Shown: positions 20,797-35,764 of the stretch, in pieces
How the letters are laid out: every line of letters starts with the position of its first letter
Numbering within the stretch: the stretch's first letter is position 1
Origin: Baia soyae
Lineage (GTDB): Bacteria > Bacillota > Bacilli > Thermoactinomycetales > Thermoactinomycetaceae
NCBI RefSeq assembly: GCF_004341445.1
Contig: NZ_SLXV01000008.1
Coordinates: 1 to 64,000, forward strand
Reading direction: 5' to 3'
DNA: 64,000 nucleotides
Program-made: the position numbers and the translations under genes
Notes under the pieces: model-generated
Told to the model about the DNA's origin: nothing
Databases searched by the model: none
What the model saw: only the letters and a program-made list of their open reading frames with translations

Positions 20797-20848
20797 GAAT
20801 AATAGATAAAGCAAGTAACGTAGAGATATAAGCGATGGGGGTGGGAGA

Positions 20849-20929
20849 GTGAAGGGTCTAACTGTGCTCAAAACAGTGGTAGAAGTAGTTTTCAGCGTTT
20901 GGATCGGAAATGAGAGAGGCGGCATCTAG
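20849..20929 (+). CDS. Possible 26-residue hydrophobic peptide
   Basis: A GTG follows GGGGGTGGGAG. The frame encodes a short peptide with a hydrophobic centre (LTVLKTVVEVVFSVWIG) and a charged end (NERGGI), then a TAG and, 22 bases on, a strong terminator. A lone small ORF with a ribosome site and its own terminator is suggestive, but no family is recognised and it could be chance. Confidence 0.3.
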   Translation: MKGLTVLKTVVEVVFSVWIGNERGGI

Positions 20930-20951
20930 ATATGGAAGCAACCAAAATATG

Positions 20952-20990
20952 AGGGACATTCTATATTGAAAATAGAATTGTCCCTTTTTT
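20952..20990 (+). terminator. Rho-independent terminator
   Basis: AGGGACA(t)TCTAT pairs with ATAGA(at)TGTCCCT, followed by five T and CTTTT. No large plus-strand gene lies between this and the kam terminator, so it points to a short transcript in 20800-20950. It could alternatively end the minus-strand transcript of the acetyltransferase. Confidence 0.8.
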
Positions 20991-21007
20991 CTTTTGATTC
21001 GCTTAAT

Positions 21008-21562
21008 CTAGTTGCCAGTTGTCTCATCGTTACTCACATACTCTACTAACCAACAATCCTCATATACTCCCTCATGCAACTCATGTCGCGGTAGAAAAGA
21101 TACCTTCTTAAATCCACATTTCTCATAACAACGAATCGCTCTTTTATTACGAGCTTGCGGATCCATTACGATGGCTTTTGCACCCAGCTCTCGAGTTAGA
21201 TAATCGATCATGCAAGAAACCAGACGAGTTCCTACACCTTTGTTCCAATAATGAGTTTCACCAATGAATTGATCCATTCCCCATACATTTGTCTCTTTCC
21301 AATAACCAGTGCTTTTCTTTTCTTGATCGGTTAGAGGATAGAATTGAATATAGCCAATCGGCGTATCCTCATATTCTACGATGCAATTTTGATTTCGTTG
21401 ATCTTTGTGGTTCATGTATTGTTTCCGTACCTGTTCAGGAGATTGTGGCTGATCTCTTCCCTCATAAAAATAAAGAACGTCAGGGTTTGTAAGCCACTTG
21501 GAGAGAATGGCTACATCGTCTTCGCTAACGAGTCGTATCGTAATAGGACCTGATTTTATCAT
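21008..21562 (-). CDS. GNAT acetyltransferase, aminoglycoside 6'-N-acetyltransferase-like
   Basis: Start chosen at ATG 21562 (MIKSGPITIRLVSEDDVAIL) behind AGAAGGGAG. An earlier start at 21613 has no site. The 184-residue product shows the AAC(6')-like pattern: ILSKWLTNPDVLYFYEGRDQP, GYIQFYPL, WGMDQFIGETHYWNKGVGTRLVSCMIDYL with the acetyl-CoA loop (WNKGVGTR), and IVMDPQARNKRAIRCYEKCGFKKV. Members acetylate aminoglycosides. It is followed upstream by an ABC-F resistance-type gene and an APH-like kinase, so the three may form a resistance locus. Substrate not proven. Confidence 0.85.
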   Translation of the reverse strand: MIKSGPITIRLVSEDDVAILSKWLTNPDVLYFYEGRDQPQSPEQVRKQYMNHKDQRNQNCIVEYEDTPIGYIQFYPLTDQEKKSTGYWKETNVWGMDQFIGETHYWNKGVGTRLVSCMIDYLTRELGAKAIVMDPQARNKRAIRCYEKCGFKKVSFLPRHELHEGVYEDCWLVEYVSNDETTGN

Positions 21563-21599
21563 CGTTTTTCTCCCTTCTACGCTATCATAGCAAGATATA

Positions 21600-21633
21600 A
21601 GAAAAGCAGGCACATCTACTTGCGATGTACCTG
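21600..21633 (-). terminator. Terminator of the ABC-F gene
   Basis: CAGGTACATC pairs with GATGTGCCTG and is followed by CTTTTCTT on the minus strand. It lies 21 bases past the ABC-F stop. Confidence 0.75.
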
Positions 21634-21653
21634 TATAAAAATAAATATATTTC

Positions 21654-23225
21654 TTATCTGCATTTCTTTAGTGATTCAAGTATTTGATGATACCTCTTTT
21701 CCAATGCTTCTTTTTCCTCTTCCTTTAAGGAAAGGGAGAGCCGGCTTATTACCTCAGTCAGCTCGTATTGTAATAGCATTTGGTCGGGATTTGGACCTGA
21801 TAAGGAATTCGCTTTTTTCTTTTCTAGGTATTCCTCATAGGTTCCATCAAAACAAGTCGCAACTCCATCTTCTATTATAATGAGAAAAGTTGCTACGGCG
21901 GAAAGTAGTTGCCGATCGTGAGAAGAAAACAGGATGGTTCCTGGGTGAGAGATCAGCACCTTTTCTAATTCTTCTCGTGTCGAAATATCTAAAAAGTTGG
22001 TTGGTTCATCTAGTACGAGAAAGTTGGCATCGCTGAGAAAGATCTTTGCTAGTTGAACTCGTTGTTTTTCTCCGCCACTTAAGGAGGAGATACGTTGCCA
22101 TATGATATCTCCCGGGAAGGAGAGTCGAGCAAGGATGGTGCGAATCATAGACTCTGTATACCGACTCTGTAGGCTCACATTTTCTAAAATGGTGTGATTC
22201 GGCTTTAGGCCTTTTGACTTTTGATGAAAGTAGCCAATTTTCGCCTGAGGAGAAAGTTTTACACCCACTTCTTGATTTACAACCATGTCTAATAAAGTAG
22301 ACTTTCCTGCACCATTTTTCCCGATGACTGCTACCTTTGCACCAGTAGGGATCGAGCAGGTTAGCCCTTGAAAGAGCGAACGTCCCCCAATCGTTTTTGA
22401 AACGTTCTCCAGTCGAAGAGCAACTTTGCTTTCTAATGGATGATGATAATGTAAATCTAGGGGAATGGGTGATTGTTCCATTGACTTTTCTGCTTCTCCT
22501 AATTTCTCGATCCGACTCTCTATTGCTTTTACTTGTTTCTCTACTTTTGCCATCTGAGTCCCTTTCCCTGCTTTGTAAAGCCGGGCTTCAGACGTGCTCA
22601 TACGTGTAGGGATTTTCCCCATTTGCGTAGCTTGTAGCTTCTTCCTTCTAGCTGCATCCAACAGACGTTTTTTCTCTTTTTCTACTTGTTGGTATTCAAA
22701 CTGGATTCGATTGGTTGCCAGCTCTTTCTGCTCGAGATAGGATTGATAGTTTCCATTATAGATATGGATTTTTTCTCCATCGATCTCTAGTATCCTAGTA
22801 CAGATGGTATTTAGCAGTGCTCGATCATGAGAAACGATGAGGAGAGTCCCAGGATAATGGATAAGCTCCTTTTCTAGCCATTGAACACCTTGTGTATCCA
22901 AATGACTTGTAGGCTCATCGGCTAATAGCAACGAAGGTTGTTGGCTGAGAGCCTGTGTAATCCTGCGCTTCGTCTCTTCCCCGCCACTTAAGAATGACTG
23001 ATTTTGTTCCTCTTGCTTAATCCAAGATACCGTACCCTTCACGGTGAGACTTCCTTCATCGACTATTTCTTCATGACCCAACATGCGGAGCAAAGTTGTT
23101 TTCCCCGTACCGTTTCGCCCCGCGATGCCGATCTTCTCACCATGTCTAACTTGAAGCTTATCTATTGAAAACAGCAAACGATTTCCGAACCATTTCTTCA
23201 AGTTGTTCGCCTCTAAAATGAACAT
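21654..23225 (-). CDS. ABC-F ribosome-protection ATPase (Vga/Lsa/VmlR-like)
   Basis: Start chosen at ATG 23225 (MFILEANNLKKWFG) behind GGAGGGGG. The frame upstream is a structured leader. The 523-residue product has two ATPase domains without membrane spans: Walker A GRNGTGKTT and GKNGAGKST, signatures LSGGEE and LSGGEKQ, Walker B LLLADEPTSHLD and FLVLDEPTNFLD, switch SHDR. The interdomain linker (about residues 180-280) is long and basic, as in antibiotic-resistance ABC-F proteins that displace pleuromutilins, lincosamides or streptogramins from the ribosome. The leader carries a small ORF and an attenuator, typical of drug-inducible members. The exact drug cannot be read from the sequence. 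Confidence 0.9.
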   Translation of the reverse strand: MFILEANNLKKWFGNRLLFSIDKLQVRHGEKIGIAGRNGTGKTTLLRMLGHEEIVDEGSLTVKGTVSWIKQEEQNQSFLSGGEETKRRITQALSQQPSLLLADEPTSHLDTQGVQWLEKELIHYPGTLLIVSHDRALLNTICTRILEIDGEKIHIYNGNYQSYLEQKELATNRIQFEYQQVEKEKKRLLDAARRKKLQATQMGKIPTRMSTSEARLYKAGKGTQMAKVEKQVKAIESRIEKLGEAEKSMEQSPIPLDLHYHHPLESKVALRLENVSKTIGGRSLFQGLTCSIPTGAKVAVIGKNGAGKSTLLDMVVNQEVGVKLSPQAKIGYFHQKSKGLKPNHTILENVSLQSRYTESMIRTILARLSFPGDIIWQRISSLSGGEKQRVQLAKIFLSDANFLVLDEPTNFLDISTREELEKVLISHPGTILFSSHDRQLLSAVATFLIIIEDGVATCFDGTYEEYLEKKKANSLSGPNPDQMLLQYELTEVISRLSLSLKEEEKEALEKRYHQILESLKKCR

Positions 23226-23322
23226 AAAAAATCCCCCTCCAAATAATACCCAAATCGGGCATTTTTTCGTTAGAGAGGGTTGAAAGGATGACAATGAATG
23301 CCAACAACAACCTACTCTAACG
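23224..23322 (-). promoter_or_regulatory. Leader-peptide transcription attenuator of the ABC-F gene
   Basis: On the minus strand, CCCTC (about 23274-23278) pairs with GAGGG of the ribosome site, and an inner AAAAAATGCCC / GGGTATTATTT stem stacks on it. The stem is followed by GATTTTTTATG, making a terminator that also hides the ribosome site. The alternative antiterminator pairs CGTTAGAGtaGGTTG (23308-23322) with CAACCctCTCTAACG (23268-23282), 13 of 15 pairs. The 5' antiterminator arm overlaps the stop codon of the leader ORF, so a ribosome finishing the leader favours termination and one stalled earlier favours read-through. Confidence 0.75.
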
Positions 23323-23362
23323 TATTTGTTTGTTGTACACGTACTGATTGTTGTTTGTTCAT
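23312..23362 (-). CDS. Leader peptide of the ABC-F attenuator (16 residues)
   Basis: The ATG at 23362 has AAAGGATGG 10 bases upstream. The peptide is MNKQQSVRVQQTNTLE and stops at a TAG inside the antiterminator arm. Leader peptides of this kind sense ribosome-stalling drugs upstream of ARE ABC-F genes. Which codon stalls is unknown. Confidence 0.65.
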   Translation of the reverse strand: MNKQQSVRVQQTNTLE

Positions 23363-23396
23363 TGGTCACGTACCATCCTTTCGATTAGATAGAATG

Positions 23397-23402
23397 ATTA
23401 TA
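23397..23402 (-). promoter_or_regulatory. Putative -10 box of the ABC-F leader
   Basis: TATAAT on the minus strand, about 35 bases before the leader ORF. The -35 region is poor (TTTCTT at 17 bases). It overlaps the start region of the divergent kinase gene. Confidence 0.4.
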
Positions 23403-23453
23403 CAATAGAGGATGAAAAAAAGAAAACGAATGAGAGGGGACAACAGAGATACG

Positions 23454-24362
23454 ATGATAAATAATGAAGAGAATCTAGAACGCGCAAAAAAGTGGCTTTT
23501 ACAGACCACGCATCCTCGTAGCACAATCCGATCCTATACTCCTTTATTAGGAGCTACATCCTCTTCTCTCTATAAAGTAGAAGTGGATGATGATACGTAT
23601 GTTCTTCGTTTATATACGAATCAAGAGTGGAATGAGCAGGAACCTGATCTTGCCTTCCATGAAGCTAGCTCATTAAACAAGATGGGGAGTAGTTCCTTAC
23701 AAACTCCTCAGATGATAGCAGTCGATGAAATGGGTGAGCAAGCTGGATACCCAGCCGTTTTGATGACCAAGGTTCCAGGTAAGGCTCAACTATCCCCGAT
23801 GGATCAGAATGCCCTATCACAGTTAGCAAAAACATTACACTCTATTCATTCGATGGAGGTTGATTTTAAGTGGACGTACTCTTCTTATTATGAGATGGAG
23901 GCGCTTCAAGCACCTAAGTGGTCTTATCAGGAGAATGTATGGAAGAAAGCGATCGAATACACGAAAAGGGTTCAATCAGACTATACAGGGCAAGATGTTA
24001 CCTTTATTCACCGTGACTACCATCCGATGAATGTGTTATGGGATGATCAGAAAATCACGGGGGTGGTGGATTGGGTAAATGCATGTATCGGCCCTCGTGG
24101 GGTAGATGTAGGTCACTGTCGATTAAATCTTGCACTCTTGTACGGAGTAGAAATAGCTGACCAGTTTCTACTCGAATATGAGAAAGTAGCAGAATCTTTC
24201 ACCTACCACCCATATTGGGATTTACGAATGATCTTTGAATTCCTTCCAGGACCGCCAACGGTTTATCAAGGTTGGTTAGATGTCGGTGTGACAGGGCTAA
24301 CAGATAGACGAATAGAACAGCGCTTCGAAGCGTATATGCGGAGTGTATGGGAGAGAATATAA
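23454..24362 (+). CDS. Aminoglycoside phosphotransferase (APH) family kinase
   Basis: The product has 302 residues from the ATG at 23454 (MINNEENLERAKKWLL), with AGAGGGG 14 bases upstream. An in-frame ATG at 23412 would put GAGG directly against the start. It has the protein-kinase-like fold of the APH family: YVLRLY with the ATP lysine position replaced by Arg, VLMTKVPG hinge, catalytic loop FIHRDYHPMNVLW (H, D, N), and GVVDW as the metal-binding Asp motif. Such enzymes phosphorylate aminoglycosides, macrolides or small metabolites. Divergent from the ABC-F gene. Confidence 0.8.
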   Translation: MINNEENLERAKKWLLQTTHPRSTIRSYTPLLGATSSSLYKVEVDDDTYVLRLYTNQEWNEQEPDLAFHEASSLNKMGSSSLQTPQMIAVDEMGEQAGYPAVLMTKVPGKAQLSPMDQNALSQLAKTLHSIHSMEVDFKWTYSSYYEMEALQAPKWSYQENVWKKAIEYTKRVQSDYTGQDVTFIHRDYHPMNVLWDDQKITGVVDWVNACIGPRGVDVGHCRLNLALLYGVEIADQFLLEYEKVAESFTYHPYWDLRMIFEFLPGPPTVYQGWLDVGVTGLTDRRIEQRFEAYMRSVWERI

Positions 24363-24580
24363 AGTCTTATACTAGGATTTCCGTAATGTTTGAATACAAG
24401 TGAATGGATAAAAATACAGTAAGTAGATGAGAACACACGGAAATGAGTGTTGGGAGTGTACTGACTGATGCACGATTCACCAGATTCCTTCTTGCACAAC
24501 GACCAAACATTTGGCAGAGTTAAAATTAACAAGAGAAACACGAAAACCAAATGAACACGCCAAATAAATGAGGAATCATC

Positions 24581-25396
24581 ATGGTAGAGTTTAAGGAGAT
24601 AACATCCCGAACCATTTTAACGCCAGCGAATGGTTCGCTAGGTGGAAGCCAGTTTACATTTACCCTAAACCCATACGTAGGCTGTGTATTTGGCTGTAAG
24701 TACTGCTACGTTAGGGAGATGCCAGCAGCGAAGTACCGAGAGGCTGAGTGGGGAGAGTACGTCGATATTAAAACGAATGCGGCGGAGTTGCTAGAGAAAG
24801 AGATTCGGAAGGCGAGAAAAAGAGGGACACCCGTATCCATCTTTATGAGTACTGCGACCGATCCCTACCAAGGGGTGGAAGCGAAAACGGGATTAACACG
24901 CTCCCTTCTCGAAGCGATGTTGTCCCAGAAGGATGAGATTGATTACTTGATGATACACACGCGATCTCCCTTAGCAAAGAGGGACATCGATCTTTTCCGT
25001 GAGTTTGGTCAGAAGATCATTGTGAGTATGACGATTGAAACGGACTTAGAGAAGATTAGAAAAGTATTTACGCCAAGCGCTCCACCTATTCCTGCGAGGC
25101 TGGCGACTCTGAGAGAGATTACGGAAGCTGGAGTACCCACGAGAGCTTCCATTTCTCCGATGCTTCCACTAAGTAAACATATAGCCAAGACGTTAAAAGA
25201 GGTAACAGCCCAAGTAGCATTGGATGATTTCTTTATGGGAGATGGGAGCCGCGGTAGGCGAACGGAGCGAATGAATATCAAGAATCTCTATGAACAGCTA
25301 AACCTGTTGCAGTGGTTTGAACGAGGAGCGTATAAAAAGGTACTCGTCCTCTTACAGGAAGAGTTCGAAGAAGTGGATGTATTTAATGAAATATAA
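24581..25396 (+). CDS. Radical SAM protein, SPL/Rv2578c-like
   Basis: The product has 271 residues from the ATG at 24581. The cluster motif is CVFGCKYCYV (CxxxCxxC, about residues 34-41), followed by SIFMSTATDPYQGVEAKTGLTRSLLEAM and IIVSMTIETDLEKIRKVFTPSAPPIPARLATLREI, features of the spore-photoproduct-lyase-related radical SAM family found alone in many bacteria. It lacks the C-terminal Cys region of true SplB, so DNA repair is not certain. Single gene, followed by an inverted repeat. Confidence 0.85.
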   Translation: MVEFKEITSRTILTPANGSLGGSQFTFTLNPYVGCVFGCKYCYVREMPAAKYREAEWGEYVDIKTNAAELLEKEIRKARKRGTPVSIFMSTATDPYQGVEAKTGLTRSLLEAMLSQKDEIDYLMIHTRSPLAKRDIDLFREFGQKIIVSMTIETDLEKIRKVFTPSAPPIPARLATLREITEAGVPTRASISPMLPLSKHIAKTLKEVTAQVALDDFFMGDGSRGRRTERMNIKNLYEQLNLLQWFERGAYKKVLVLLQEEFEEVDVFNEI

Positions 25397-25542: not shown

Positions 25543-25571
25543 TTGTGCATATTATAATTGTTATGTATACT
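25543..25571 (+). promoter_or_regulatory. Sigma-A promoter of the 25.6-35.6 kb cluster
   Basis: TTGTGC, 17 bases, TATACT, in a very AT-rich stretch 40 bases before the first gene. No second clear promoter was found inside the cluster. Confidence 0.65.
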
Positions 25572-25610
25572 TTAATTCGTCAGTAAGAAATTTTCCTTAG
25601 GGGGAGAGTT

Positions 25611-26483
25611 ATGCTATCTCTACAAGCAACAGATTCTATACTCAATGGACTGAAAAGTATCGATATTCACGCAAATAACGTGGATGAATTAGTAAAACAC
25701 GGGATTACTCATATTTTGGACAAAGGAGATCGGGTCTCAACAAGAGCTGGAGATGCTTTGCAAGCGTATGATGTGAACTATCTTTTGCTAGACTCTAGAG
25801 ATCGGGTGCATACAGCTCGTCCTCAAGCAGTCAAATACTTTGCTAGAGAGCTATGTGCCTATTTCCAAGGAAGCCTAAAAGTGGATGGCGGATTATCTAA
25901 AGCTTCGAAATTTTGGAATCATCTAGCTGATCAGAATGGAAACATTAATTCGAATTATGGGTATTATGTGTTTTATCAGCCAGTTCCGGATGTAAAAATT
26001 AGTAGCCAATATGATTGGGTTATCAAACGCCTTTGTGATAACCGGGATTCAAGACGGGCTATTATCAATATAAATCAAGGTATGCACAAGACTGCAACAA
26101 AAGATTTCCCATGCACAGTGGCAATTAATTATTTCATTAGAGAGGGTTTTTTGTGTTCAAAAGTATTCTCTCGCAGTACAGATGTTATCACTGGTTTGCC
26201 ATATGACATGGGCTTCTTTTCGTTTCTAACAGAGTTAGTCTATCAAGATTTAGTAGATAGAGGCGTACCAGATTTGAAGCTAGGTTATACCATGATGGCT
26301 AGTAACTTTACTCAAATCTATGACCGACATGCCGATAAAGCGCTGGATATTTCGGACAGCTTCGTGCTTCAAGAGTCTGTTATGATGCCAAGGATCACAA
26401 ATGCAAGTGAAGTATTGGAAGATATCTACAACGGTACTTCAAACAGTGAAGTGATGAAGTGGGTTCACGAAAACGCGACGTAA
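25611..26483 (+). CDS. Thymidylate synthase-like enzyme, probable pyrimidine nucleotide C5-(hydroxymethyl)transferase
   Basis: The product has 290 residues and starts at an ATG behind TTAGGGGG. The TS fold is clear: R148-R149 in NRDSRRAIININ, nucleophile C168 in KDFPCTVAINYF, and the phosphate/base loop RSTDVITGLPYD (R188, S189, D191, G195). Two changes matter. The Asn that reads uracil in TS (GLPFN, Asn177 of E. coli) is Asp199 here, the change found in cytosine-specific hydroxymethylases such as T4 dCMP hydroxymethylase. The T-H-x-Y-S-N-H segment that contacts the deoxyribose is TMMASNF, losing His and Tyr. A CMP- or dCMP-modifying role, as for MilA of mildiomycin or the bacimethrin enzyme, is inferred. 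It opens the cluster. Confidence 0.8.
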   Translation: MLSLQATDSILNGLKSIDIHANNVDELVKHGITHILDKGDRVSTRAGDALQAYDVNYLLLDSRDRVHTARPQAVKYFARELCAYFQGSLKVDGGLSKASKFWNHLADQNGNINSNYGYYVFYQPVPDVKISSQYDWVIKRLCDNRDSRRAIININQGMHKTATKDFPCTVAINYFIREGFLCSKVFSRSTDVITGLPYDMGFFSFLTELVYQDLVDRGVPDLKLGYTMMASNFTQIYDRHADKALDISDSFVLQESVMMPRITNASEVLEDIYNGTSNSEVMKWVHENAT

Positions 26484-26502
26484 TGTAGATTGGAGATAAG
26501 TC

Positions 26503-27060
26503 ATGAGAATCCTACTAACCTCAACCAATGAGGCCAAACAGAAAGCACTACAAAATATAGTAGATCGATTTTACGATCAGGCTACCATCGAAACGATTTC
26601 AGTTGATTCAGGAGTGTCTAAAACACCAACCAATGATCAGGAAGCGATTCAAGGCTGTTGGAATCGAATTGATCTAGCAAGAGAGATCAAAGGAGATTAC
26701 GATGCCTATGTCTCGTTTGAAGGATTGATTTCCAATCATGAGTTCGGGATGTTCTTATACGGATGGTGCTTGTTTGTGGACGGTAAGAAAAACAAATACG
26801 GCTTAGGGGCTAGTTCTCAAGTGATGGTTCCTACATTTATCAGTAGCAAAATCTCGGCTGACGTAGAATTTAGCGACGTGGTAAAAGCGGATTACCCTTC
26901 GCCCCATCTTTCCAAGATGTCAGTGGTAGGAAGCAACGGTTTGTTTACCAATCTAAGCTATACGCGGGTTCAAGAGTTTGAGGATGCAGCTCTATGCGCG
27001 CTGGGATATCTTCATAATCCCACCAATGCAGGGGATCAACGCTTTGTACCTCAAAAATAA
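26503..27060 (+). CDS. YjjX/DUF84-like nucleoside triphosphatase
   Basis: The product has 185 residues, starting 19 bases after the previous stop behind TTGGAG. The N-terminus MRILLTSTNEAKQKALQNIV and SVDSGVSKTPTNDQEAIQGCWNRIDLAREI follow the inosine/xanthosine triphosphatase family (ITPase fold). The usual GIEGG active-site loop is VSFEGLI here, keeping the Glu. The family clears non-canonical NTPs. Placed right after a nucleotide-modifying enzyme, it may remove a modified triphosphate before it enters RNA, or supply the monophosphate to the pathway. Both are inference. Confidence 0.8.
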   Translation: MRILLTSTNEAKQKALQNIVDRFYDQATIETISVDSGVSKTPTNDQEAIQGCWNRIDLAREIKGDYDAYVSFEGLISNHEFGMFLYGWCLFVDGKKNKYGLGASSQVMVPTFISSKISADVEFSDVVKADYPSPHLSKMSVVGSNGLFTNLSYTRVQEFEDAALCALGYLHNPTNAGDQRFVPQK

Positions 27061-27081
27061 ACAGGCTAGGATGATCAGAAC

Positions 27082-28431
27082 ATGGATCTAGTCATCAAAA
27101 ACACTCATTTTCTGGACCGTCATTTTCAGATTCGCTTTGGTTCAATCGTGATGGAGAAGCAAAAGATAAAGCGGATTTTCTATAGCGAGTCGGAAGTGAA
27201 TACCTTTTTAGCAGAGAGTAGCTTTTCAGGTAGGGTTCTAGATGGTGAGAATCTTGTATGCATTCCTGGATTGACGAATGCTCATCTACATCCGAGTAAA
27301 GATTTATATCGAGGTCTTTTCTTAGGACAATCACTCCCAACCATTCTCTCTTTGATTCACCAGCAAAATGGCCAAGAGTCAGACGAAGATCAGTACTGGG
27401 CCTCCTTGTACAGCTATAAGCGAATGATTCAAATGGGTGTTACCACGACGGGTGTGTTTACCAGCCGCTACGAACCTGACTTAAAAGCGGCCGAGGCATC
27501 CGGGATTCGTTGCTTTATAACGTATGCTGTCAATGAGAAGTGGAACGGTAATGGCGTATCGCCCCAAGTGATTTCTGATGAACAGGCATTTGAGCGAGTG
27601 GATCAATTCTTAGCAAGTGACAGAAGTGAACGCATTTCGTTGTCCATTGGGACTTCTTCCGAACTAACTTCGTCTCCTCAGTTTATGAAGGATCTCTACG
27701 AGGTGGCAAAGCGAAATGAAGTATTGTTTTCCCTGCATGTGAGTGAAGGGGAAACACAATCGAACAAATGCAAAGAAGTACATGGTTTACACAGTGTTGA
27801 ATTTCTAAACAGTCTTAATATATTGACAGAAAACACTTTGTTAATTCATGCTTCTTTTCTAACTCCTAAAGAAGTCGAACTAGTAGCAAGCTTGCCTATA
27901 AAGCTAGTAAGCTGTCCATTGGCGAATGCCTTTGCACAGGCCGGATTGTTCGAGTTACTAAAATTGAGCGACGGAAAATGTAGCATAGGCCTCGGAACGG
28001 ATGCTGGGATGATCAATCCACAAAATAACTTGATGGCCGATGCGTTATTCTCCTATTTCTCGCAACGTGTGATGAGTAGAGAAAGACAAGTAGACTTCGA
28101 GAAAATTTTCAAACTGATCACGGTTGATGGTGCTAAGGCGCTCGGTTTAGACCAAGTTGGCGTAATCGAAGAAGGATGGACAGCAGACATTGCTATCTTC
28201 TCCGTCCCAGAACAAGCTCCGATCAACGAATTTAATCCGTTGCTCCTAGTATCCGAGGTCCTGATGACATCATCGGCCAGATATGTCGTGATCGGCGGCG
28301 AACTCGTCATCGACGATTATAAGTTTAAGCCGACGGATGAAGAGTTTCTAAACCAGAAATTCTACAGCATCAAATCAAGACTCACGGCACCACTTATGGA
28401 GCATTTGAAAGAATTGGAGTCTGTTAATTAA
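27082..28431 (+). CDS. Amidohydrolase, cytosine/guanine-deaminase-like
   Basis: The product has 449 residues. It has the metal site of the amidohydrolase superfamily: HxH in LTNAHLHPSKDLYRG (about residue 70), SLHVSEGE, LLIHASFL and GLGTDAGMINPQNN (metal Asp). The TDAG-N order and total length fit the ATZ/TRZ and MTA/SAH/cytosine deaminase group rather than peptidases. In this context, deamination of a modified cytosine-type base is a reasonable guess. Gap to the previous gene is 21 bases. It is followed by a short copy of the hairpin element. Confidence 0.8.
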   Translation: MDLVIKNTHFLDRHFQIRFGSIVMEKQKIKRIFYSESEVNTFLAESSFSGRVLDGENLVCIPGLTNAHLHPSKDLYRGLFLGQSLPTILSLIHQQNGQESDEDQYWASLYSYKRMIQMGVTTTGVFTSRYEPDLKAAEASGIRCFITYAVNEKWNGNGVSPQVISDEQAFERVDQFLASDRSERISLSIGTSSELTSSPQFMKDLYEVAKRNEVLFSLHVSEGETQSNKCKEVHGLHSVEFLNSLNILTENTLLIHASFLTPKEVELVASLPIKLVSCPLANAFAQAGLFELLKLSDGKCSIGLGTDAGMINPQNNLMADALFSYFSQRVMSRERQVDFEKIFKLITVDGAKALGLDQVGVIEEGWTADIAIFSVPEQAPINEFNPLLLVSEVLMTSSARYVVIGGELVIDDYKFKPTDEEFLNQKFYSIKSRLTAPLMEHLKELESVN

Positions 28432-28449
28432 TGAGATATTCGAGTTAGA

Positions 28450-28528
28450 CCGGGGCATGTATCTGCCCATAGCTCAAATAGTGAGTCTGCGAACACTAAC
28501 ATCGCAGTGGTCAGATACATTGCCCCTA
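28450..28528. repeat. Interspersed hairpin element, subfamily A, internally deleted copy
   Basis: About 79 bases. Both ends of subfamily A are intact (CCGGGGCATGTATCTGCCCA and CAGATACATTGCCCCTA), but the central stem-loop is missing. The remainder still folds as one hairpin through AGTG / CACT. It sits inside the biosynthetic operon between the amidohydrolase and the first ATP-grasp gene. Confidence 0.8.
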
Positions 28529-28607
28529 GCCTAATCCTGTCTACTAATTAATCAACAGACTGATATGAGTAGTGGTTAATATGAATGAAGCAAGGGAGTC
28601 GAACACA

Positions 28608-29873
28608 TTGAATCAAACTAAAAGAAAAATCATGATTGTCGAGCCAAACTGCTCAGGTGGCATTGAGCTATTGAAGAGTGCAAGAAGAATGGGCGCTGAA
28701 GTCCATGTTGTTACACATGAAGACTTATATCAGAAGAACTACCCAGCTGAGTTGAAAGAAATGATCGACTATACACTGTTTACGAACTTCTGCATTGAAG
28801 CAGAAGCGATCGCAGATATGGTTGCGTATAGCAAAAAAGTGGGAATTGAGGGAGTCGTAGCGGGTTTCGAGTTCGTGTCTGATATGACAGTGAAAGTAGC
28901 GAGCGAATTAGGACTACCTACTCATGATCCGCTTACATGTGAGGCACTTCGAAGAAAAGACTTGATGCATCAACGTTTTGTAGAGAATCAAGTTGCTTGT
29001 GCGAAGTCGATCATCGTTCAAAAGTGGGATGAGTGCACTGCGGCGGCGCTTGAACTGGGCTATCCTGTCGTGATTAAACCATCTTCCAATGCAGGATCAT
29101 GCAGTGTTTTTAAAGTAAACTGTGAAGACGAGCTAAAGAAAGCATTTGAAGTGATTCGTGAGAATAATGTGGAGTTCCCTCACGGTATGCCTCTAGATGA
29201 TCATATTTTGATCCAAGAGTTTCTATCTGGACCAGAGGTGAGTGTCGAAGTCGTTGTATTCAACGGTGACGTTAGCGTACTGGCGATTACAGATAAAACG
29301 ACTACTTCTGGAAATTACTTTGCTGAGATTGGTCACACTCTTCCGTCTAACTTAAATCCTCGTGAGCAGAAGCTCATTATGGATATGACGAAGCTGGCTG
29401 TGCACTCTCTCGGATTGAAAAACGGGATTGGTCATGTTGAGTTGAAACTGACGCAGGATGGCGTGAAGATTATTGAGGTAGGGGCGAGAATGCCAGGGGA
29501 TAAGATCCCGAATCTCTTATTACACGCTTGTGGAATTGATGAAGGCATCGTTTACATTCAAGCTTCGATGGGTCAATTTCCTGATGTGACACCAAGGAAT
29601 CATCAGTTTGCGGCGATCCAGTTTATCACGAGTGATCGAGAAGGTGTGATCGAATCGATCGGTCGACTGGAGGAGATCCAGAACATTTCCTCAAACGGGG
29701 AGGAAGGGATCGTTGACATCGAGATTTATGTGGAAGAAGGGCAAAAGATTGGTGTTCCGATCAACAATATTGACAGAATCGGTCATATCATTGCCGTTTC
29801 CAATAGCTATGAAAGAGCAGCGATTTTATGTTCGGAAGCATTAGAAAAAATTGAATTGCAAATCGCTGAGTAG
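28608..29873 (+). CDS. ATP-grasp ligase, copy 1 of a tandem pair
   Basis: The TTG at 28608 is chosen as start: AGGGAG lies 9 bases upstream, and the product (MNQTKRKIMIVEPNCSGG) then aligns end to end with the next gene, both 421 residues. GTG 28572 and ATG 28581 give an unmatched extension. It has the ATP-grasp core: VVIKPSSNAGSCSVFKV loop, LIQEFLSGPEVSVEVVVF, and VELKLTQDGVKIIEVGARMPGDKIP with the metal-binding Glu. The usual GG after GAR-x-x is GD here, but GG in the sister copy. ATP-grasp ligases of this kind join a carboxylate to an amine. Substrates unknown. Confidence 0.88.
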   Translation: MNQTKRKIMIVEPNCSGGIELLKSARRMGAEVHVVTHEDLYQKNYPAELKEMIDYTLFTNFCIEAEAIADMVAYSKKVGIEGVVAGFEFVSDMTVKVASELGLPTHDPLTCEALRRKDLMHQRFVENQVACAKSIIVQKWDECTAAALELGYPVVIKPSSNAGSCSVFKVNCEDELKKAFEVIRENNVEFPHGMPLDDHILIQEFLSGPEVSVEVVVFNGDVSVLAITDKTTTSGNYFAEIGHTLPSNLNPREQKLIMDMTKLAVHSLGLKNGIGHVELKLTQDGVKIIEVGARMPGDKIPNLLLHACGIDEGIVYIQASMGQFPDVTPRNHQFAAIQFITSDREGVIESIGRLEEIQNISSNGEEGIVDIEIYVEEGQKIGVPINNIDRIGHIIAVSNSYERAAILCSEALEKIELQIAE

Positions 29874-29923
29874 ATTGTATTTTAGTTGAGTTGAGTTTAG
29901 TTAGACGATGAGGAGCGGAAAAG

Positions 29924-31189
29924 ATGGATCAAGAGAGAAGAAAGATTATGATCATCGAACCCAATTGCTCAGGTGGCATCGAGCTATTGAAGAGTGCGAG
30001 GCGAATGGGTGTCCAGGTCCATGCAGTGACGCATGAAGACTTGTATCAACATAGCTATTCGGATGCAGTAAAGGAAATGATTGACTATACACTGTTTACA
30101 AACTTTTGTGAAGAAGTAGAAGCGATTGCAGAGATCGTCGCGTATGGCAAAAGAGTGGGGATTGAGGGGGTAGTAGCGGGCTTCGAGTTTGTGACCGATA
30201 TGACGGTGAAAGTGGCCAGTGAATTAAATCTACCTACTCATGATGTGACGAAGTGTGCGGCGCTTCGCAGAAAAGATTTGATGCATCGGTATTTTGCGGA
30301 GTGCGAGGTTGCTTGTGCCAAGACAATCGTGGTTCAAACATGGGATGAGTGTACTGCGGCCGCGCTTGAAATCGGTTACCCTGTCGTGATTAAGCCATCT
30401 TCGAACGCAGGATCATGTAGCGTTTTCAAGGTAAACAGTGAACAAGAGCTAATGGAAGCTTTTGAAGTCATAAGGCAAAATAATATTGAATTTCCACATG
30501 GTATGCACCTAGATGATCACATCTTGATCCAAGAGTATTTATCCGGACAGGAAGTAAGCGTAGAAGTGGCGATCTGTGAAGGGGAAGTCAGCGTACTAGC
30601 CATTACAGATAAGATGACTACTACCGGTAATCATTTTGCCGAGATCGGTCACACTCTTACTTCCCATTTAGATGATTGTAAACAAAAGCAAATCAAAGAT
30701 ATGACGGAATCAGCCGTTCGCTCCCTCGGATTGAAAAATGGCATTGCTCATGTGGAAGTGAAGCTGACGAAGGACGGTGTGAAGATTATTGAAGTAGGGG
30801 CAAGGATGCCGGGTGGGAAAATTCCTTGTCTCCTCTTACACGCTTGCGGAATTGATGAAGGGATTGTCTATATTCAGACTTCTCTGGGGCAAAATCCGGA
30901 TGTTACCCCTCGAAATAATCAATTCGCGGCTATCCGTTTTATCACGAGCGATAAAGAGGGAGTTATTGAATCAATTGGTCGGCTTGAGGAAATCCAGAAG
31001 GCTTCTTCGGATGAAGAGGAAGGCATTGTGGAGATCGAAATATATGCAAAAGAAGGGCAAAAGATCGGTGTCCCGATTAACAACATTGACAGAATCGGTC
31101 ATATCATTTCGGTTTCTCATCGTTATGAAAGGGCATCTGCTTTATGTTCGGAAGCATTAGAGAAAATTGAATTGCAAATTGCTGAGTAG
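29924..31189 (+). CDS. ATP-grasp ligase, copy 2 of a tandem pair
   Basis: The product has 421 residues and an ATG behind GATGAGGAGCGG. By eye, roughly three quarters or more of residues match the preceding gene over the whole length, including EPNCSGGIELLKSARRMG, VVAGFEFV-DMTVKVASEL and PSSNAGSCSVFKVN. The ATP-binding and metal-binding segments are intact (VEVKLTKDGVKIIEVGARMPGGKIP). Differences cluster in the N-terminal domain and in residues 280-300, suggesting divergence in the substrate joined. It is a recent tandem duplicate. Confidence 0.88.
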   Translation: MDQERRKIMIIEPNCSGGIELLKSARRMGVQVHAVTHEDLYQHSYSDAVKEMIDYTLFTNFCEEVEAIAEIVAYGKRVGIEGVVAGFEFVTDMTVKVASELNLPTHDVTKCAALRRKDLMHRYFAECEVACAKTIVVQTWDECTAAALEIGYPVVIKPSSNAGSCSVFKVNSEQELMEAFEVIRQNNIEFPHGMHLDDHILIQEYLSGQEVSVEVAICEGEVSVLAITDKMTTTGNHFAEIGHTLTSHLDDCKQKQIKDMTESAVRSLGLKNGIAHVEVKLTKDGVKIIEVGARMPGGKIPCLLLHACGIDEGIVYIQTSLGQNPDVTPRNNQFAAIRFITSDKEGVIESIGRLEEIQKASSDEEEGIVEIEIYAKEGQKIGVPINNIDRIGHIISVSHRYERASALCSEALEKIELQIAE

Positions 31190-31201
31190 AGGTGGACATC
31201 G

Positions 31202-32443
31202 ATGAGGATCGCATTTACTCGATCAGTAGATATCGGACAGGCGCAACCCTTTTTACGTTACATTAGCAAGTACGTTCAGAAAAATGAGCATCAGATAAAG
31301 CTTTTCTATACAGATGGTGAATGCAACGAAGAGATGTTTCCAGGTGAGATGGAAAAGGTTCCAGCGGATGTCTCCTGTGAAACACTCGTCGAAAAAATAG
31401 TGGATTGGAAAGCGGATGTCGTGATTTCGATTTCGCTTCCAGATGATAATAGTTTGCGTGATGCTTGTGTAAAGGAAATCTTAATGGAAAAGCATCAGAT
31501 TCCGATGATTATGCACTCGATGGAAGCAACCGCGATCATGTGCAATAAGTGGGAAACAAAGGGCTTCTTACGCAATTTGGGATATGCCGTTACCGATGGA
31601 TTCTTAATTCATGGTGACCTGATCAACGACCGGGGCATTCGTTACCACTCGTATCGTGATTTTATCTTTCATAAAGTGCAGAAAATGGGCTTCCCGATCA
31701 TCGTCAAACCACTGTGGGATTCGATGTCATGCGGCATTCAGATTATGGATACGGTAGAGGAATTACGAGACTACCTAACCACGAATCCTCCAACAGCGGA
31801 TGTTCTAGTAGAACAGTTTATCGAGGGAGAGCTATTTGGCATCGAAGTACTAGGGTGCGATGGGAATTATCGTTGCCAACCGTTGGTCAGAAAGTGCTCC
31901 AATTCAGTTCGGAATCTATTCCCATTTGACCACCTCCGATTTGCTCCATTTACCCATGAATCTTACCCGATTCAAGAATTAGAGGAAATGGTTTTAAATA
32001 TTGCCTCTAAATTAGAGGTAAGTGGGTCGATCGACGTAGAATTAATATATAAGGACGGAATTTTTTACATCATTGAGATTAATCCTCGCATCTCAGGTAT
32101 GACGAATTTGTCGTCGGCTGTTTCTGGGCATAATGCGTTCCAGTGCCTCCTTGAAATGGCAGAGGGTGAATGGGTAAACAAGCATCGTCTACCAAAGCAA
32201 GATCGTTTTGTAGCTGAGTTTCCGTTGGAAAATATAACGCCGGCCACTGCGGAGCGGATGCGGAATCGTGATGATGTGGTTTATGTAAGCTTTAACCGCT
32301 ACCACGACGGAAGAACACAGTACAAGATGATGCTGAGCGCAGTAGATGCAGAAGATTGCTTCTTTAAATTGATGGGTTTAAATGAGGAAAATAAGATTGT
32401 TCCCATTCATATCATCGAGGAATTACGAAGCAGTATGACGTAA
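31202..32443 (+). CDS. ATP-grasp ligase, third type
   Basis: The product has 413 residues, starting 12 bases after the previous stop behind AGAGGTGG. It is distant from the tandem pair. The central lobe shows FPIIVKPLWDSMSCGIQIM and DVLVEQFIEGELFGIEVLGCDG. The metal-binding segment is SIDVELIYKDGIFYIIEINPRISGM. The D-Ala-D-Ala-ligase-like N-terminal lobe has ADVVISISLPDDNSLR. It is likely another carboxylate-amine ligase of the same pathway. Followed by a perfect hairpin before the transporter. Confidence 0.85.
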   Translation: MRIAFTRSVDIGQAQPFLRYISKYVQKNEHQIKLFYTDGECNEEMFPGEMEKVPADVSCETLVEKIVDWKADVVISISLPDDNSLRDACVKEILMEKHQIPMIMHSMEATAIMCNKWETKGFLRNLGYAVTDGFLIHGDLINDRGIRYHSYRDFIFHKVQKMGFPIIVKPLWDSMSCGIQIMDTVEELRDYLTTNPPTADVLVEQFIEGELFGIEVLGCDGNYRCQPLVRKCSNSVRNLFPFDHLRFAPFTHESYPIQELEEMVLNIASKLEVSGSIDVELIYKDGIFYIIEINPRISGMTNLSSAVSGHNAFQCLLEMAEGEWVNKHRLPKQDRFVAEFPLENITPATAERMRNRDDVVYVSFNRYHDGRTQYKMMLSAVDAEDCFFKLMGLNEENKIVPIHIIEELRSSMT

Positions 32444-32446
32444 TAA

Positions 32447-32487
32447 GAATATATGGGACTATGAATCCAATCTAGTCCCATATATTC
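32447..32487 (+). terminator. Perfect hairpin inside the cluster
   Basis: GAATATATGGGACTA pairs with TAGTCCCATATATTC (15 bp, perfect) across an 11-base loop. No T run follows, so it may be an RNA-processing or partial attenuation site rather than a terminator. Confidence 0.45.
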
Positions 32488-32510
32488 ATTGTAGCGAATT
32501 GAGGTGTAGT

Positions 32511-33737
32511 ATGAAGAATCTCTTCAAGAATAATTTGCAACTATTTTTACTATCAGATTTAATATGTCAGTTTGGCGCTGGCATTACACTCGGAACCTTA
32601 AACTGGCTTGTACTCGACCACATGGGAAAGAATGAGCTGGTCAGTTTGGTATTCGGTGTAAACGTAGTTTGTGGATTGTTGATATCATTCTTTTCTGGAT
32701 TGATAGTCGACCGTTTTGATAAGAAGGCAGTTGTAATCTGGTCAAATGTGTTTCGGATTGCTTTGACACTGATTACGCTGTTGTTGTTTTTATTTACAGG
32801 TTTCCACTATAGTTACGTGTTCCTTTTAGCGATTAGCAATGGAATCGGGTGGAATATTTACTTTCCAGCTACTAAGGCGCTCTTGCAAAGCATTACGGCA
32901 AAAGGGGGCAATGTCCTAAAAGGAAATTCAGGCGCGGAAATCGCGATGCAAGTAGGGATGTTCTCAGCAGGTGCGGTTGGAGGATTACTCTATAAAAAAC
33001 TAGGATTTAATTCCATTTTGATTATCAATATTGTGATGTTTATCATCGCAAGCTTGTTAGTAAAACTCATCTCAGTTGAGACAACGGCAGCGAAAACGGG
33101 ATTAAAATTGGCTAATCTAAAAGAAGACTTTGTCAATGGATTCAAGTATTTCCGTCATCGTTCGGCGATCTTCTTACTCGGAATTACGATGTTTATCCCA
33201 TTTGTAGCGGCGGGCCTGATCAATGTATCGCTTCCAGGCTACGTGAGCACCTTTTTACATGAGGATTCTGTGAAATTCGGGCTGATTACCATGTGTTATG
33301 GGATTGGGGCCTGTATCTCTGGTTTGATTATTATGAATCTCTCTTCTAAAATCTCACGAAAAGGGTTAGTGCTGGTTGGGTTTATCATCGCGATCCTCTG
33401 CGGGGGACTCATGTTTGTGAATCATAGTGTTGCAGTCGCCTGTTTTATCAATATGATGTTTGGGTTCTGTGGTTCGGGGATTCGAATCATTATGTACTCA
33501 GAAGTGATGGAGAAATTGCCACCTGAGTACATCGGACGGGCGATGTCGATCTGGAATGTGATCGGGATGTCCCTACAAATCGGTTGTACGTATGTAGTAG
33601 GGAAATCGATGGATGCATGGGGTGCGCAATACGGCTTTTTAATTTTATCAAGTGTGATGACGCTTGGTTTCATCATCTATAGCCTCTCTTATCGAATGGA
33701 TAAGAAGAGTAGTAGCAGTAGCACAATGGCTGGATAG
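32511..33737 (+). CDS. MFS transporter, probable product exporter
   Basis: Start chosen at ATG 32511 (MKNLFKNNLQLFLLSD) behind GAGGTG. The 408-residue product has about 12 hydrophobic segments and a loop-2 motif GLIVDRFDKKAVV, as in the enterobactin-exporter-like/multidrug branch (MFS_3). It sits between ligases of a biosynthetic operon, so export of the product or self-protection is the natural reading. Substrate unknown. Confidence 0.85.
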   Translation: MKNLFKNNLQLFLLSDLICQFGAGITLGTLNWLVLDHMGKNELVSLVFGVNVVCGLLISFFSGLIVDRFDKKAVVIWSNVFRIALTLITLLLFLFTGFHYSYVFLLAISNGIGWNIYFPATKALLQSITAKGGNVLKGNSGAEIAMQVGMFSAGAVGGLLYKKLGFNSILIINIVMFIIASLLVKLISVETTAAKTGLKLANLKEDFVNGFKYFRHRSAIFLLGITMFIPFVAAGLINVSLPGYVSTFLHEDSVKFGLITMCYGIGACISGLIIMNLSSKISRKGLVLVGFIIAILCGGLMFVNHSVAVACFINMMFGFCGSGIRIIMYSEVMEKLPPEYIGRAMSIWNVIGMSLQIGCTYVVGKSMDAWGAQYGFLILSSVMTLGFIIYSLSYRMDKKSSSSSTMAG

Positions 33738-33748
33738 GGGGAACAGAT

Positions 33749-34330
33749 ATGATTGCGAAGCTCAAAGAAGAAAGCCCACCTTTAATTTGTTGCTTTTGCG
33801 GTGCTAGAACAGGTAACGATCCCATGTGGATGGAACAAGCTGAGATAGCAGGAAGGAAGCTAGCAGAAGCTGGCTTTGGTATCGTGTATGGTGGCGGTAC
33901 CATAGGCATGATGGGGAAATTAGCGAACGAAGTGGCTGTTGGTGGTGGCAAAGTCGTAGGGGTCTTGCCCGAGTTTCTCAGGCACCAAGAAGCAGAGGGC
34001 GGTGCACTCGCTTCTACGATCTTTACGCAGAGCATGCATGAGCGAAAAAATACGATGTATCAATTAGCATCTGGCTTTTTGGCTATGCCGGGTGGAATTG
34101 GTACCTTTGATGAATTATGTGAAACGATTGCATGGTTAAAGATTGGAATACACGACGCCCCTCTTTATATATGGAATATCCATCATTTCTTTGATCCGTT
34201 TATCCAGTTGATTGATAATTTGAAGCATCACGGATTTTTGAATGATGATGATATGACCAAAGTAAAGATTGTCGATGACATTGATACAATTGTTTCTTCA
34301 TTAAAAGTAGCAATTCCCGTTCATAAATAG
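33749..34330 (+). CDS. LOG family nucleoside 5'-monophosphate phosphoribohydrolase
   Basis: The product has 193 residues and an ATG behind GGGGG. It carries the two LOG signatures: GFGIVYGGGTIGMMG (about residues 44-58) and PGGIGTFDELCE (PGGxGTxxE, about residues 112-123), preceded by MHERKNTMYQLASGF. LOG enzymes cut the N-glycosidic bond of nucleoside monophosphates, releasing the base. Together with the TS-like enzyme this would give a free modified pyrimidine, the logic used in mildiomycin and bacimethrin synthesis with unrelated hydrolases (inference). It has no membrane segment. Confidence 0.88.
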   Translation: MIAKLKEESPPLICCFCGARTGNDPMWMEQAEIAGRKLAEAGFGIVYGGGTIGMMGKLANEVAVGGGKVVGVLPEFLRHQEAEGGALASTIFTQSMHERKNTMYQLASGFLAMPGGIGTFDELCETIAWLKIGIHDAPLYIWNIHHFFDPFIQLIDNLKHHGFLNDDDMTKVKIVDDIDTIVSSLKVAIPVHK

Positions 34331-34361
34331 TAAATTCCCTTGATTTGGCGGAGGTACAACA

Positions 34362-35576
34362 ATGAAAACGAATCAAAATATAGTGATTATGAACAGATGG
34401 AGCGATGATTACGGGAACTATGCGATTCTCCTTGACCATCATCAAAATAATGTTTCCTACATCGTAAATGCGGGTGGTGCAGTCTATCTAGACAATCACC
34501 CCGAGATCCCCAACTATGCACAAGTGGTTACCGATTTGAAAGATGTAGAGGAAGTAAGTTCGGCAATCGATAATATCATCAGTCGATTTGGGAAGATCGA
34601 TGTTCTCATTGCCTTGTCCGAAAATGATATTTTAGTTGCAGGGAAAATGAGAGATCGTTATGCGATCAAAGGTCTCAGTTTACAAGATACTCTACGATTT
34701 ATTGATAAAATTGAAATGAAGAAGAGTTTTGTGGGTACGAAGGTTGCGATTCCGCGATATCTGGAGGACCTAACAGAGAAAAGTTTGCTTGATTTTGTAT
34801 CTGAGACTGGATTTCCTGTTGTGCTAAAGCCGAGAACAGGGGCTGCTAGTGCAGGAGTAAAAATCATACCGGATATGGAACAACTAGAGGCTGCGATGAA
34901 AGAGATCGATATTCATACCTATGAGTGTGAGGAGTATATAGAAGGTCCTATTGTTCATATAGATGGCATTATGAAAAATGGCGAGCTTGTGTTTGTTAAA
35001 ACGTCTCGCTATCTAAACACCTGCTATGACTATACGCTAGGAAAATCAGTTGGCTCCATCATTATTTCTGACGAACAGAGATCGAAGAAATTTGGAGACT
35101 TTGCTGAAGAGGTGATGAAAACACTTAGGCTGGATAACGGTGTGTTTCATCTAGAGGCGATTCTGCGTGAGGGAGATGAGCCTGTATTCCTAGAGCTGGG
35201 TGCACGTCAAGGTGGCGGAGAAGTGGTGCCACTTATGAGACTTTTATATGATGTGGACTTAGTAAGGGCCCTCTTCCAATCCCAACTGGGTGAAGAAATT
35301 GAAGTATCCCCTAGAGAAACACCTTTTGTATCAGGGTTCTTGTTAGTCCCTGAGCCGAAAGAGGTTCCTTGTAAAGTGGTGAAGGTATCTAAAGTAGAAG
35401 GCTTATCAACTCTATCTTATCAATATATTCCAGAAGTAGATTCTATTCTCGATGGTAAAGGCGGGTACTATTTTAACGCTGGTAAATTTGCCTTTATTGG
35501 CCGTGAAGAAGACATCGAATCGGATCTTCTCCGAGCGATGAACGAATATGAAATCGTAACAGAGCCAATCGCATAA
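34362..35576 (+). CDS. ATP-grasp ligase, fourth in the cluster
   Basis: The product has 404 residues and an ATG behind GGCGGAGG. It has an ATP-grasp layout: FPVVLKPRTGAASAGVKII, ECEEYIEGPIVHIDGIMKNGELVF, and FHLEAILREGDEPVFLELGARQGGGEVVPLM with metal-binding Glu residues. This last form resembles BtrJ/L-amino-acid-ligase relatives that activate an amino acid carboxylate. It ends the operon, followed by a terminator. Confidence 0.87.
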   Translation: MKTNQNIVIMNRWSDDYGNYAILLDHHQNNVSYIVNAGGAVYLDNHPEIPNYAQVVTDLKDVEEVSSAIDNIISRFGKIDVLIALSENDILVAGKMRDRYAIKGLSLQDTLRFIDKIEMKKSFVGTKVAIPRYLEDLTEKSLLDFVSETGFPVVLKPRTGAASAGVKIIPDMEQLEAAMKEIDIHTYECEEYIEGPIVHIDGIMKNGELVFVKTSRYLNTCYDYTLGKSVGSIIISDEQRSKKFGDFAEEVMKTLRLDNGVFHLEAILREGDEPVFLELGARQGGGEVVPLMRLLYDVDLVRALFQSQLGEEIEVSPRETPFVSGFLLVPEPKEVPCKVVKVSKVEGLSTLSYQYIPEVDSILDGKGGYYFNAGKFAFIGREEDIESDLLRAMNEYEIVTEPIA

Positions 35577-35583
35577 AAAGGAA

Positions 35584-35645
35584 GACACCTCTTTGTTTCG
35601 GTTGATTTTTACTAACCATTTCGAAGTGGGTGTTTTTTCTTTTTA
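35584..35645 (+). terminator. Terminator of the biosynthetic operon
   Basis: ACACC...TTCG...CGAA...GGTGT form a long interrupted stem, followed by TTTTTTCTTTTT. Confidence 0.75.
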
Positions 35646-35764
35646 TATGGAAAATAAAAAAACTGAATGGCCACTCATTTTTGTGTTACAATGGAACCAA
35701 TTAGTAATGGTAAGATTATATATAGTTGCTGTAAATGAAATGTTTTGAAAGGAGCGAGCTAGCA

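Follow-up and report, generated by a model that had tools for sequence, protein, structure and literature searches.

A candidate mobile operon for a peptidyl-pyrimidine in Baia soyae, with a core shared by enterobacterial plasmids

Introduction

What might a cell make with a relative of thymidylate synthase (TS), a YjjX-type nucleotide phosphatase, an amidohydrolase, a LOG-type phosphoribohydrolase, four ATP-grasp ligases (AG1 to AG4) and an exporter of the major facilitator superfamily (MFS)? This question is raised by nine genes that follow one another in a 64,000-nt stretch of the 2.9 Mb genome of Baia soyae (hereafter the window), which a first-pass annotation had read from the sequence as a biosynthetic operon. 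We give a probability of about 0.5 to the reading that the run is a mobile operon for a small, exported and sugar-free peptidyl-pyrimidine, i.e., a peptidyl-(5-hydroxymethylpyrimidine) antimetabolite. Below, we set out the evidence on its enzymes, its relatives and its genomic setting, and weigh this reading against its alternatives.

Results

The nine open reading frames lie on the + strand at 25611-35576, encode proteins of 185-449 aa and are separated by gaps of 11-140 bp, in the order TS-like, YjjX-like, amidohydrolase, AG1, AG2, AG3, MFS, LOG and AG4, with G-rich ribosome-binding sites ahead of most of them. Every gene family named in the first-pass annotation was borne out by Pfam and NCBIfam models, and its description of a tightly spaced, operon-like run fits these nine co-directional genes. 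The features are as follows.

25543..25610, + strand: promoter region, TTGTGC-17-TATACT plus Shine-Dalgarno GGGGGAG before the TS-like gene (three-species conservation)
25611..26483, + strand: predicted TS-family pyrimidine C5-hydroxymethylase, cytosine-reading (PF00303, signature residues, MilA as nearest PDB fold)
26503..27060, + strand: YjjX/DUF84-type nucleotide phosphatase of a cluster-specific subfamily (PF01931, 110 bits)
27082..28431, + strand: COG0402-type amidohydrolase predicted to deaminate the modified pyrimidine (PF01979, invariant motifs, fold matches)
28572..29873, + strand: ATP-grasp ligase AG1, L-amino-acid-ligase type (PF13535 and LAL_C2 PF18603)
29924..31189, + strand: ATP-grasp ligase AG2, tandem duplicate of AG1 (PF13535 and LAL_C2, cross-alignment)
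31202..32443, + strand: ATP-grasp ligase AG3 (Dala_Dala_lig_C and other ATP-grasp models)
32499..33737, + strand: MFS exporter (PF07690, MFS_1)
33749..34330, + strand: LOG-type nucleotide phosphoribohydrolase (PF03641/TIGR00730, PGGxGTxxE and RK motifs)
34362..35576, + strand: ATP-grasp ligase AG4 (PF13535)
35577..35645, + strand: intrinsic terminator (hairpin and T-rich tail, conserved)

The TS-like protein matches PF00303 weakly and falls far below all ThyA equivalog cut-offs, and a complete canonical thyA is found on another contig of the same genome. The hallmark of the hydroxymethylases of this family is an Asp located three positions ahead of the catalytic Cys, along with a Ser (Ser94 in the T4 enzyme) and Tyr96, and cytosine specificity is conferred by T4 Asp179 (PMC6400193). 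In the B. soyae protein, D165-C168, S114, Y116 and D199 are invariant across an alignment of 14 relatives, and E80 also belongs to the hydroxymethylase signature residues. The columns of D165 and D199 hold Leu and Asn in ThyA, with Asn at the D199 column also in the ThyA of B. soyae itself, and the ThyA-type C-terminal tail is absent from the alignment. That the TS-like protein hydroxymethylates a cytosine nucleotide is hence well supported at the motif level by Asp165, Asp199 and the separate thyA. The key residues and this second gene also led us to reject a housekeeping thymidylate synthase.

The nucleotide used would be dCMP or CMP. The first-pass annotation had settled on CMP, a choice which the sugar-site residues do not support: the ribose determinants of MilA are Ala176 and Lys133 (PMC5175136), and the same positions are occupied here by Ser189 and Arg148, i.e., residues of the dCMP type. 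Asp179, Ser169 and Arg123 of T4 dCMP hydroxymethylase (dCH) are kept as D199, S189 and R148, while His216, which binds the 3′-hydroxyl (and in MilA also the 2′-hydroxyl), is replaced by an invariant Gln235. An AlphaFold model of the protein (predicted local distance difference test, pLDDT, of 87.5) finds MilA as its best PDB match (template modelling score, TM, of ~0.72); a MilA-type CMP enzyme was nevertheless rejected, the fold being similar but the ribose residues different.

ATP-grasp folds were recognized in four proteins, with LAL_C2 (PF18603) above cut-off in AG1 and AG2 and without a match in AG3 and AG4. AG1 and AG2 are recent tandem duplicates, each aligning at 77-79% with the other gene's locus in sister genomes, and they match BL00235, BacD and DdaF, but below the equivalog cut-offs. 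Full-length homologues of AG3 and AG4 are carried by pPKS, a 33 kb plasmid of Apilactobacillus kunkeei (OX335326.1), in a run of six genes (L115, 14004-20342) which encode homologues of AG4, AG1 and AG3, a nucleotide N-hydrolase, a TS-family protein and an MFS transporter. Identities to the window proteins are 39% for AG4 (full length), 38% for AG1 (the homologue being annotated ddl), 32% for AG3 (full length) and 34% for the MFS protein (8e-52). The N-hydrolase belongs to PF05014 and by sequence is matched best in the PDB by Rcl/DNPH1, of which recent entries are named 5-hydroxymethyl-dUMP N-hydrolase. The best match of the pPKS TS is MilA; it keeps the hydroxymethylase Asp and the MilA Ala/Lys pair and has Asn at the position of the cytosine-enzyme Asp. 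Neither a YjjX nor an amidohydrolase gene is annotated beside it. The paper on pPKS goes no further than a polyketide cluster and three ATP-grasp genes, and a thymidylate synthase is not mentioned in it (PMC9648514); the ATP-grasp/TS genes form a second run beside the polyketide cluster of the plasmid.

As judged from these sequences, one ligase/exporter set appears to have been combined with either of two sources of hydroxymethylated pyrimidine that differ in build, and each source comes with an N-glycosidase of its own (LOG in B. soyae, a DNPH1-like enzyme in pPKS). The order of events suggested by the first-pass annotation, from hydroxymethylase via N-glycosidase to ATP-grasp ligation and export, gains support from pPKS, where the homologous ligases and exporter accompany a TS resembling MilA and an N-hydrolase of the DNPH1 type. 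Another Bacilli genome (L125) holds a similar ligase trio at a contig end, and a 5.6 Mb genome from a different Bacilli family (L126, 7068-10971) carries a more distant ATP-grasp trio and an MFS gene, with no TS, among acyl-activating and SDR-like genes. Because such trios recur in L125 and in the TS-less L126, the ligases are a portable unit themselves.

The YjjX-type protein reaches 110 bits with PF01931 but misses both equivalogs (70 bits vs. a cut-off of 175 for PRK05074 and 50 vs. 117 for TIGR00258). It scores 92-128 bits against the copies in the enteric clusters described below and 25-40 bits against the housekeeping yjjX of the same enteric genomes; the cluster copies share motifs missing from the one housekeeping copy compared, and no phage match to the cluster type was found. 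In the amidohydrolase, the metal-binding and catalytic motifs (HxH, HxxE, H and D) correspond to H68, H70, H219, E222, H256 and D307, which do not vary across 11 sequences. Its AlphaFold model (pLDDT 77.8) best matches methylthioadenosine (MTA)/adenosine deaminases and isocytosine deaminase (TM 0.81-0.85, with 0.85 for the latter), matches as expected of a predicted aminohydrolase acting on a heterocyclic amine. The LOG protein, the only PF03641 member in the genome, scores 162.8 bits with TIGR00730, above the cut-off, its PGGIGTFDE and ERK agreeing with the PGGxGTxxE and RK motifs, and stays below the cytokinin-specific model NF058542 (108.6 bits vs. a cut-off of 300).

An unlinked locus of the same genome (contig C17; L109, 8234-12580) encodes a DMT transporter, a YjjG-type HAD protein, an amidohydrolase with 34% identity to that of the cluster, a PurN-like formyltransferase and an alpha/beta hydrolase; TS and YjjX genes are missing from it, and a similar locus was found elsewhere (L110, 7513-11884). 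The B. soyae locus resembles the tail of the enteric clusters, and its enzymes might handle a similar kind of compound.

The same nine genes occur in the same order in Thermoactinomyces sp. DSM 45892 and Croceifilum oryzae, so that each of the three species sampled from the genus has the cluster. No close TS copy was detected in the other Thermoactinomycetaceae genomes examined or in any further Bacilli genome among 399 searched, and a search of 395 genomes for the enteric-type TS at E <= 1e-40 matched B. soyae alone. As the arrangement is conserved in sister species yet absent from the other genomes of the family and of the Bacilli examined, it is not a chance assembly, and the co-inheritance in relatives on which the first-pass annotation had staked its reading was found as nine-gene synteny in three species. 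Its statement that no cluster with this gene set is known stands for the full set among the sequences searched; each half, however, exists elsewhere.

The borders point to an insertion. In three related genera, homologues of the genes at 18413-20738 are followed within ~2.2-2.8 kb by a homologue of the gene at 35735, whereas ~15 kb are inserted between them in B. soyae, consisting of GNAT, ABC-F, APH-type and radical-SAM genes and then the nine-gene cluster.

Within the cluster, the promoter that had been placed upstream lies in a block of ~55 bp ahead of the TS gene which includes TTGTGC-17-TATACT and is identical in three species, while the DNA farther upstream diverges; a scan for the generic promoter consensus listed none ahead of this gene, its total being below shuffle expectation. 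The single terminator claimed for the end was confirmed as a strong, conserved hairpin (35570-35650; -26.7 kcal/mol, z = -6.0) with a T-rich tail, kept in two sister species. In the leader, no RNA element was matched in Rfam.

Relatives of the TS-like protein at ~50-56% identity were found in Erwinia persicina, Edwardsiella anguillarum, Trabulsiella odontotermitis, Dickeya oryzae, Ewingella americana, and Dependentiae and other metagenome-assembled genomes (MAGs). In the five enterics, genes for a YjjX-like protein and an amidohydrolase adjoin the TS gene (identities of 52-56% for TS, 33-42% for YjjX and 29-36% for the amidohydrolase), followed by a PurN-like formyltransferase and an MFS transporter unrelated to that of the window. 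A HAD phosphatase of the YjjG/PynA group of non-canonical pyrimidine nucleotidases is sometimes placed between YjjX and amidohydrolase; LOG and ATP-grasp genes are absent from these clusters. All five genomes also encode a canonical ThyA. The TS-like gene of Dickeya oryzae ZYY5 (L010, 9880-10750) has a frameshift near its start, and this copy is probably non-functional.

The set is also mobile on plasmids but rare, being present in three of 5,426 complete Escherichia coli genomes, plasmid-borne in each. The E. coli carriers include a 5.7 kb record from a Shiga toxin-producing isolate and IncFII-type plasmids of ~90 kb, and a Salmonella plasmid copy lacks the formyltransferase and has a carbamoyltransferase gene upstream. 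This NodU-like carbamoyltransferase gene (L036, 6354-7919) is broken by an in-frame stop codon in that record. The plasmid operons (L034, L035 and L036) carry housekeeping annotations. No paper describing the enterobacterial cluster was found in the literature searched.

In the Dependentiae MAGs, the TS gene is followed by a NudG-like Nudix gene, whose product falls near the family of pyrimidine (deoxy)nucleoside triphosphate diphosphatases. Since one type of hydroxymethylase is accompanied by nucleotide-cleaning enzymes of two unrelated kinds, stray modified triphosphates may need to be managed. In the Dependentiae-type MAGs (L008, 902-2282; L009, 9944-11288; L011, 9881-11246), the hydroxymethylase starts with a hydrophobic, signal-peptide-like N-terminus and is the only PF00303 protein found. 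Two close TS matches on viral contigs (L039/L040) resemble the Dependentiae locus L011 in match spans and identity. A phage origin was rejected, given the weak phage TS matches and a cluster-type YjjX without a phage match.

Discussion

The enzymes of the cluster can be arranged into a pathway of six steps, each read from family, motif or position. The TS-like enzyme would hydroxymethylate a cytosine nucleotide, either dCMP or CMP, at C5, and the amidohydrolase could deaminate the modified cytosine to 5-hydroxymethyluracil, at the base or the nucleos(t)ide stage. As the family of LOG and its place in the run suggest, this enzyme would free the base of the modified nucleotide through cleavage of the N-glycosidic bond. 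Meanwhile, the YjjX-type enzyme may hydrolyze modified triphosphates made accidentally by cellular kinases, keeping them out of nucleic acid, or alternatively recycle them as substrate. AG4, AG1/AG2 and AG3, the ligase set common to pPKS, would build a short peptide and attach the pyrimidine, and the MFS protein would export the product, probably a Trojan-horse antimetabolite harming competitors. Since the pPKS TS, apparently of the uracil type, has no amidohydrolase annotated next to it, it would be economical to suppose that both routes converge on 5-hydroxymethyluracil.

Several points weigh against this proposal. The acceptor atom of the ligases is the weakest point of the mechanism: a 5-hydroxymethyluracil left by deamination of the base would have no amine to offer, and an ester or another acceptor would be needed. 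The sugar-site residues of the TS-like enzyme favour a deoxynucleotide, LOG enzymes are known mainly for ribonucleotides, and an invariant Gln235 stands in place of His216 of T4 dCH and MilA. Furthermore, the TS-less ligase trio of L126 may mean that the ligases build an independent peptide, and the enteric relatives without LOG and ligases may mean that the core's own product is a nucleoside.

The last two points lead to an alternative we regard as unlikely but worth serious attention, in which the core makes a nucleoside or base antimetabolite, e.g., 5-hydroxymethyl-deoxyuridine or 5-hydroxymethylcytosine, and the ATP-grasp enzymes make a separate di- or oligopeptide, both leaving through the same MFS exporter. 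It would account for the enteric versions, which keep TS, YjjX, amidohydrolase and an exporter without ligases or LOG, as well as for the L126 trio lacking a TS. On the other hand, pPKS again joins ligases, hydroxymethylase, N-hydrolase and a homologous MFS protein, and two independent pairings favour one product. Slightly less probable still is an attachment of the amino acids at the cytosine stage, to N4 or to the 5-hydroxymethyl group, with the amidohydrolase acting elsewhere or serving self-resistance or recycling by deamination. D199 of the TS-like enzyme reads cytosine, whose amine a ligase could acylate, and amidohydrolases with folds of this group accept a broad range of substrates; but the amidohydrolase is present in every enteric and Croceifilum copy of the cluster, more like a core biosynthetic step, and the pPKS TS is apparently of the uracil type in a cluster with no annotated deaminase.

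A DNA nucleotide-modification system of the phage type, making 5-hydroxymethyl-dCMP for defence or left as a phage remnant, appears very improbable. Its attraction lies in the resemblance of the residues to T4 dCMP hydroxymethylase and in the frequency of distant TS relatives in phages; the nine-gene run, however, contains ligases and an exporter and lacks a nucleotide kinase, a polymerase and a glycosyltransferase, no phage match was obtained for the cluster-type YjjX and the listed phage TS matches stay at or below ~31% identity. We give hardly any credence to a second thymidylate synthase adjacent to metabolic genes by chance. The TS, YjjX and LOG families all include housekeeping members, but Asp stands at the Asn and Leu positions of ThyA, the ThyA C-terminal tail is missing, thyA lies elsewhere, and the synteny in three species is accompanied by two other combinations of the modules.

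Among described systems, the proposed peptidyl-(5-hydroxymethylpyrimidine) pathway relates to the hydroxymethylpyrimidine antimetabolites mildiomycin and bacimethrin, with a different glycosidase and an added peptide-ligase tail. These pathways (MilA/BcmA and MilB/BcmB) likewise use a TS-family C5-hydroxymethylase followed by a nucleotide N-glycosidase freeing the base, and MilA is the nearest solved fold. However, the N-glycosidase slot filled by MilB in mildiomycin is taken by LOG, the nine genes holding no PF05014 enzyme of the MilB type; the ribose determinants differ, YjjX, amidohydrolase and four ATP-grasp ligases are extra, and sugar-building genes are absent. In polyoxin and nikkomycin, a modified pyrimidine and amino acids are joined by ATP-dependent ligases and the sugar is kept. 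These peptidyl nucleosides, like pseudouridimycin, retain a sugar or C-nucleoside, whereas release of the base is predicted for B. soyae; no genes for building or modifying a nucleoside sugar were found among its nine genes with Pfam and NCBIfam. The bacilysin and dapdiamide ligases (BacD, DdaF) and BL00235 share the LAL_C2 domain with AG1 and AG2 but have different partner genes. From pPKS, where homologous AG4, AG1, AG3 and MFS genes share a run with a TS of the hydroxymethylase type and a nucleotide N-hydrolase, the cluster differs by its enteric-type instead of MilA-like TS, by LOG instead of a DNPH1-like enzyme and by the plasmid's additional polyketide cluster. The enterobacterial clusters have orthologous TS, YjjX and amidohydrolase genes, but a formyltransferase or carbamoyltransferase in place of the ligases and an unrelated MFS gene. 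The gene combination as such was not found in the open-licence papers searched.

More tentatively, and with rather less confidence than for the B. soyae product, TS, YjjX and amidohydrolase might be the common core of pyrimidine antimetabolites of a so far undescribed class, spread horizontally among Bacillales and enterics (E. coli and Salmonella plasmids included), in which a C5-hydroxymethylpyrimidine receives interchangeable caps, i.e., a peptide (ATP-grasp ligases), a formyl group (PurN-like) or a carbamoyl group (NodU-like), and a dedicated house-cleaning NTPase protects the producer. If so, a small mobile antimetabolite system would have been overlooked on enterobacterial plasmids and in Bacillales under labels such as thymidylate synthase, inosine/xanthosine triphosphatase, amidohydrolase and PurN. 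A TS-family hydroxymethylase would then have been recruited at least twice as the supplier of a modified base for a single ligase/exporter cassette, and YjjX-like and LOG-like proteins would gain a defined biosynthetic role.

Further TS-family loci were seen in other settings. On rhizobial plasmids (L121, L122 and L124), MilA-like TS genes lie beside genes for an NTP pyrophosphohydrolase, a nucleotide kinase, a uracil-DNA glycosylase or TIR proteins, with no ligases in these neighbourhoods; these loci are possibly nucleotide-modification defence islands. On a Streptococcus salivarius megaplasmid (L123, 9941-18456), genes for a TS, an AAA ATPase, a PqqD-like protein, a phosphotransferase and an ABC transporter form a run which looks like another uncharacterized biosynthetic cluster.

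Within the window itself, 20739-25396 of the inserted segment encodes the GNAT, ABC-F, APH-type phosphotransferase and radical-SAM (SplB-like) proteins, the first three of which could represent resistance genes. At the window start, 58-591 and 1477-2370 encode proline/glycine-rich repeat proteins, one of them collagen-like.

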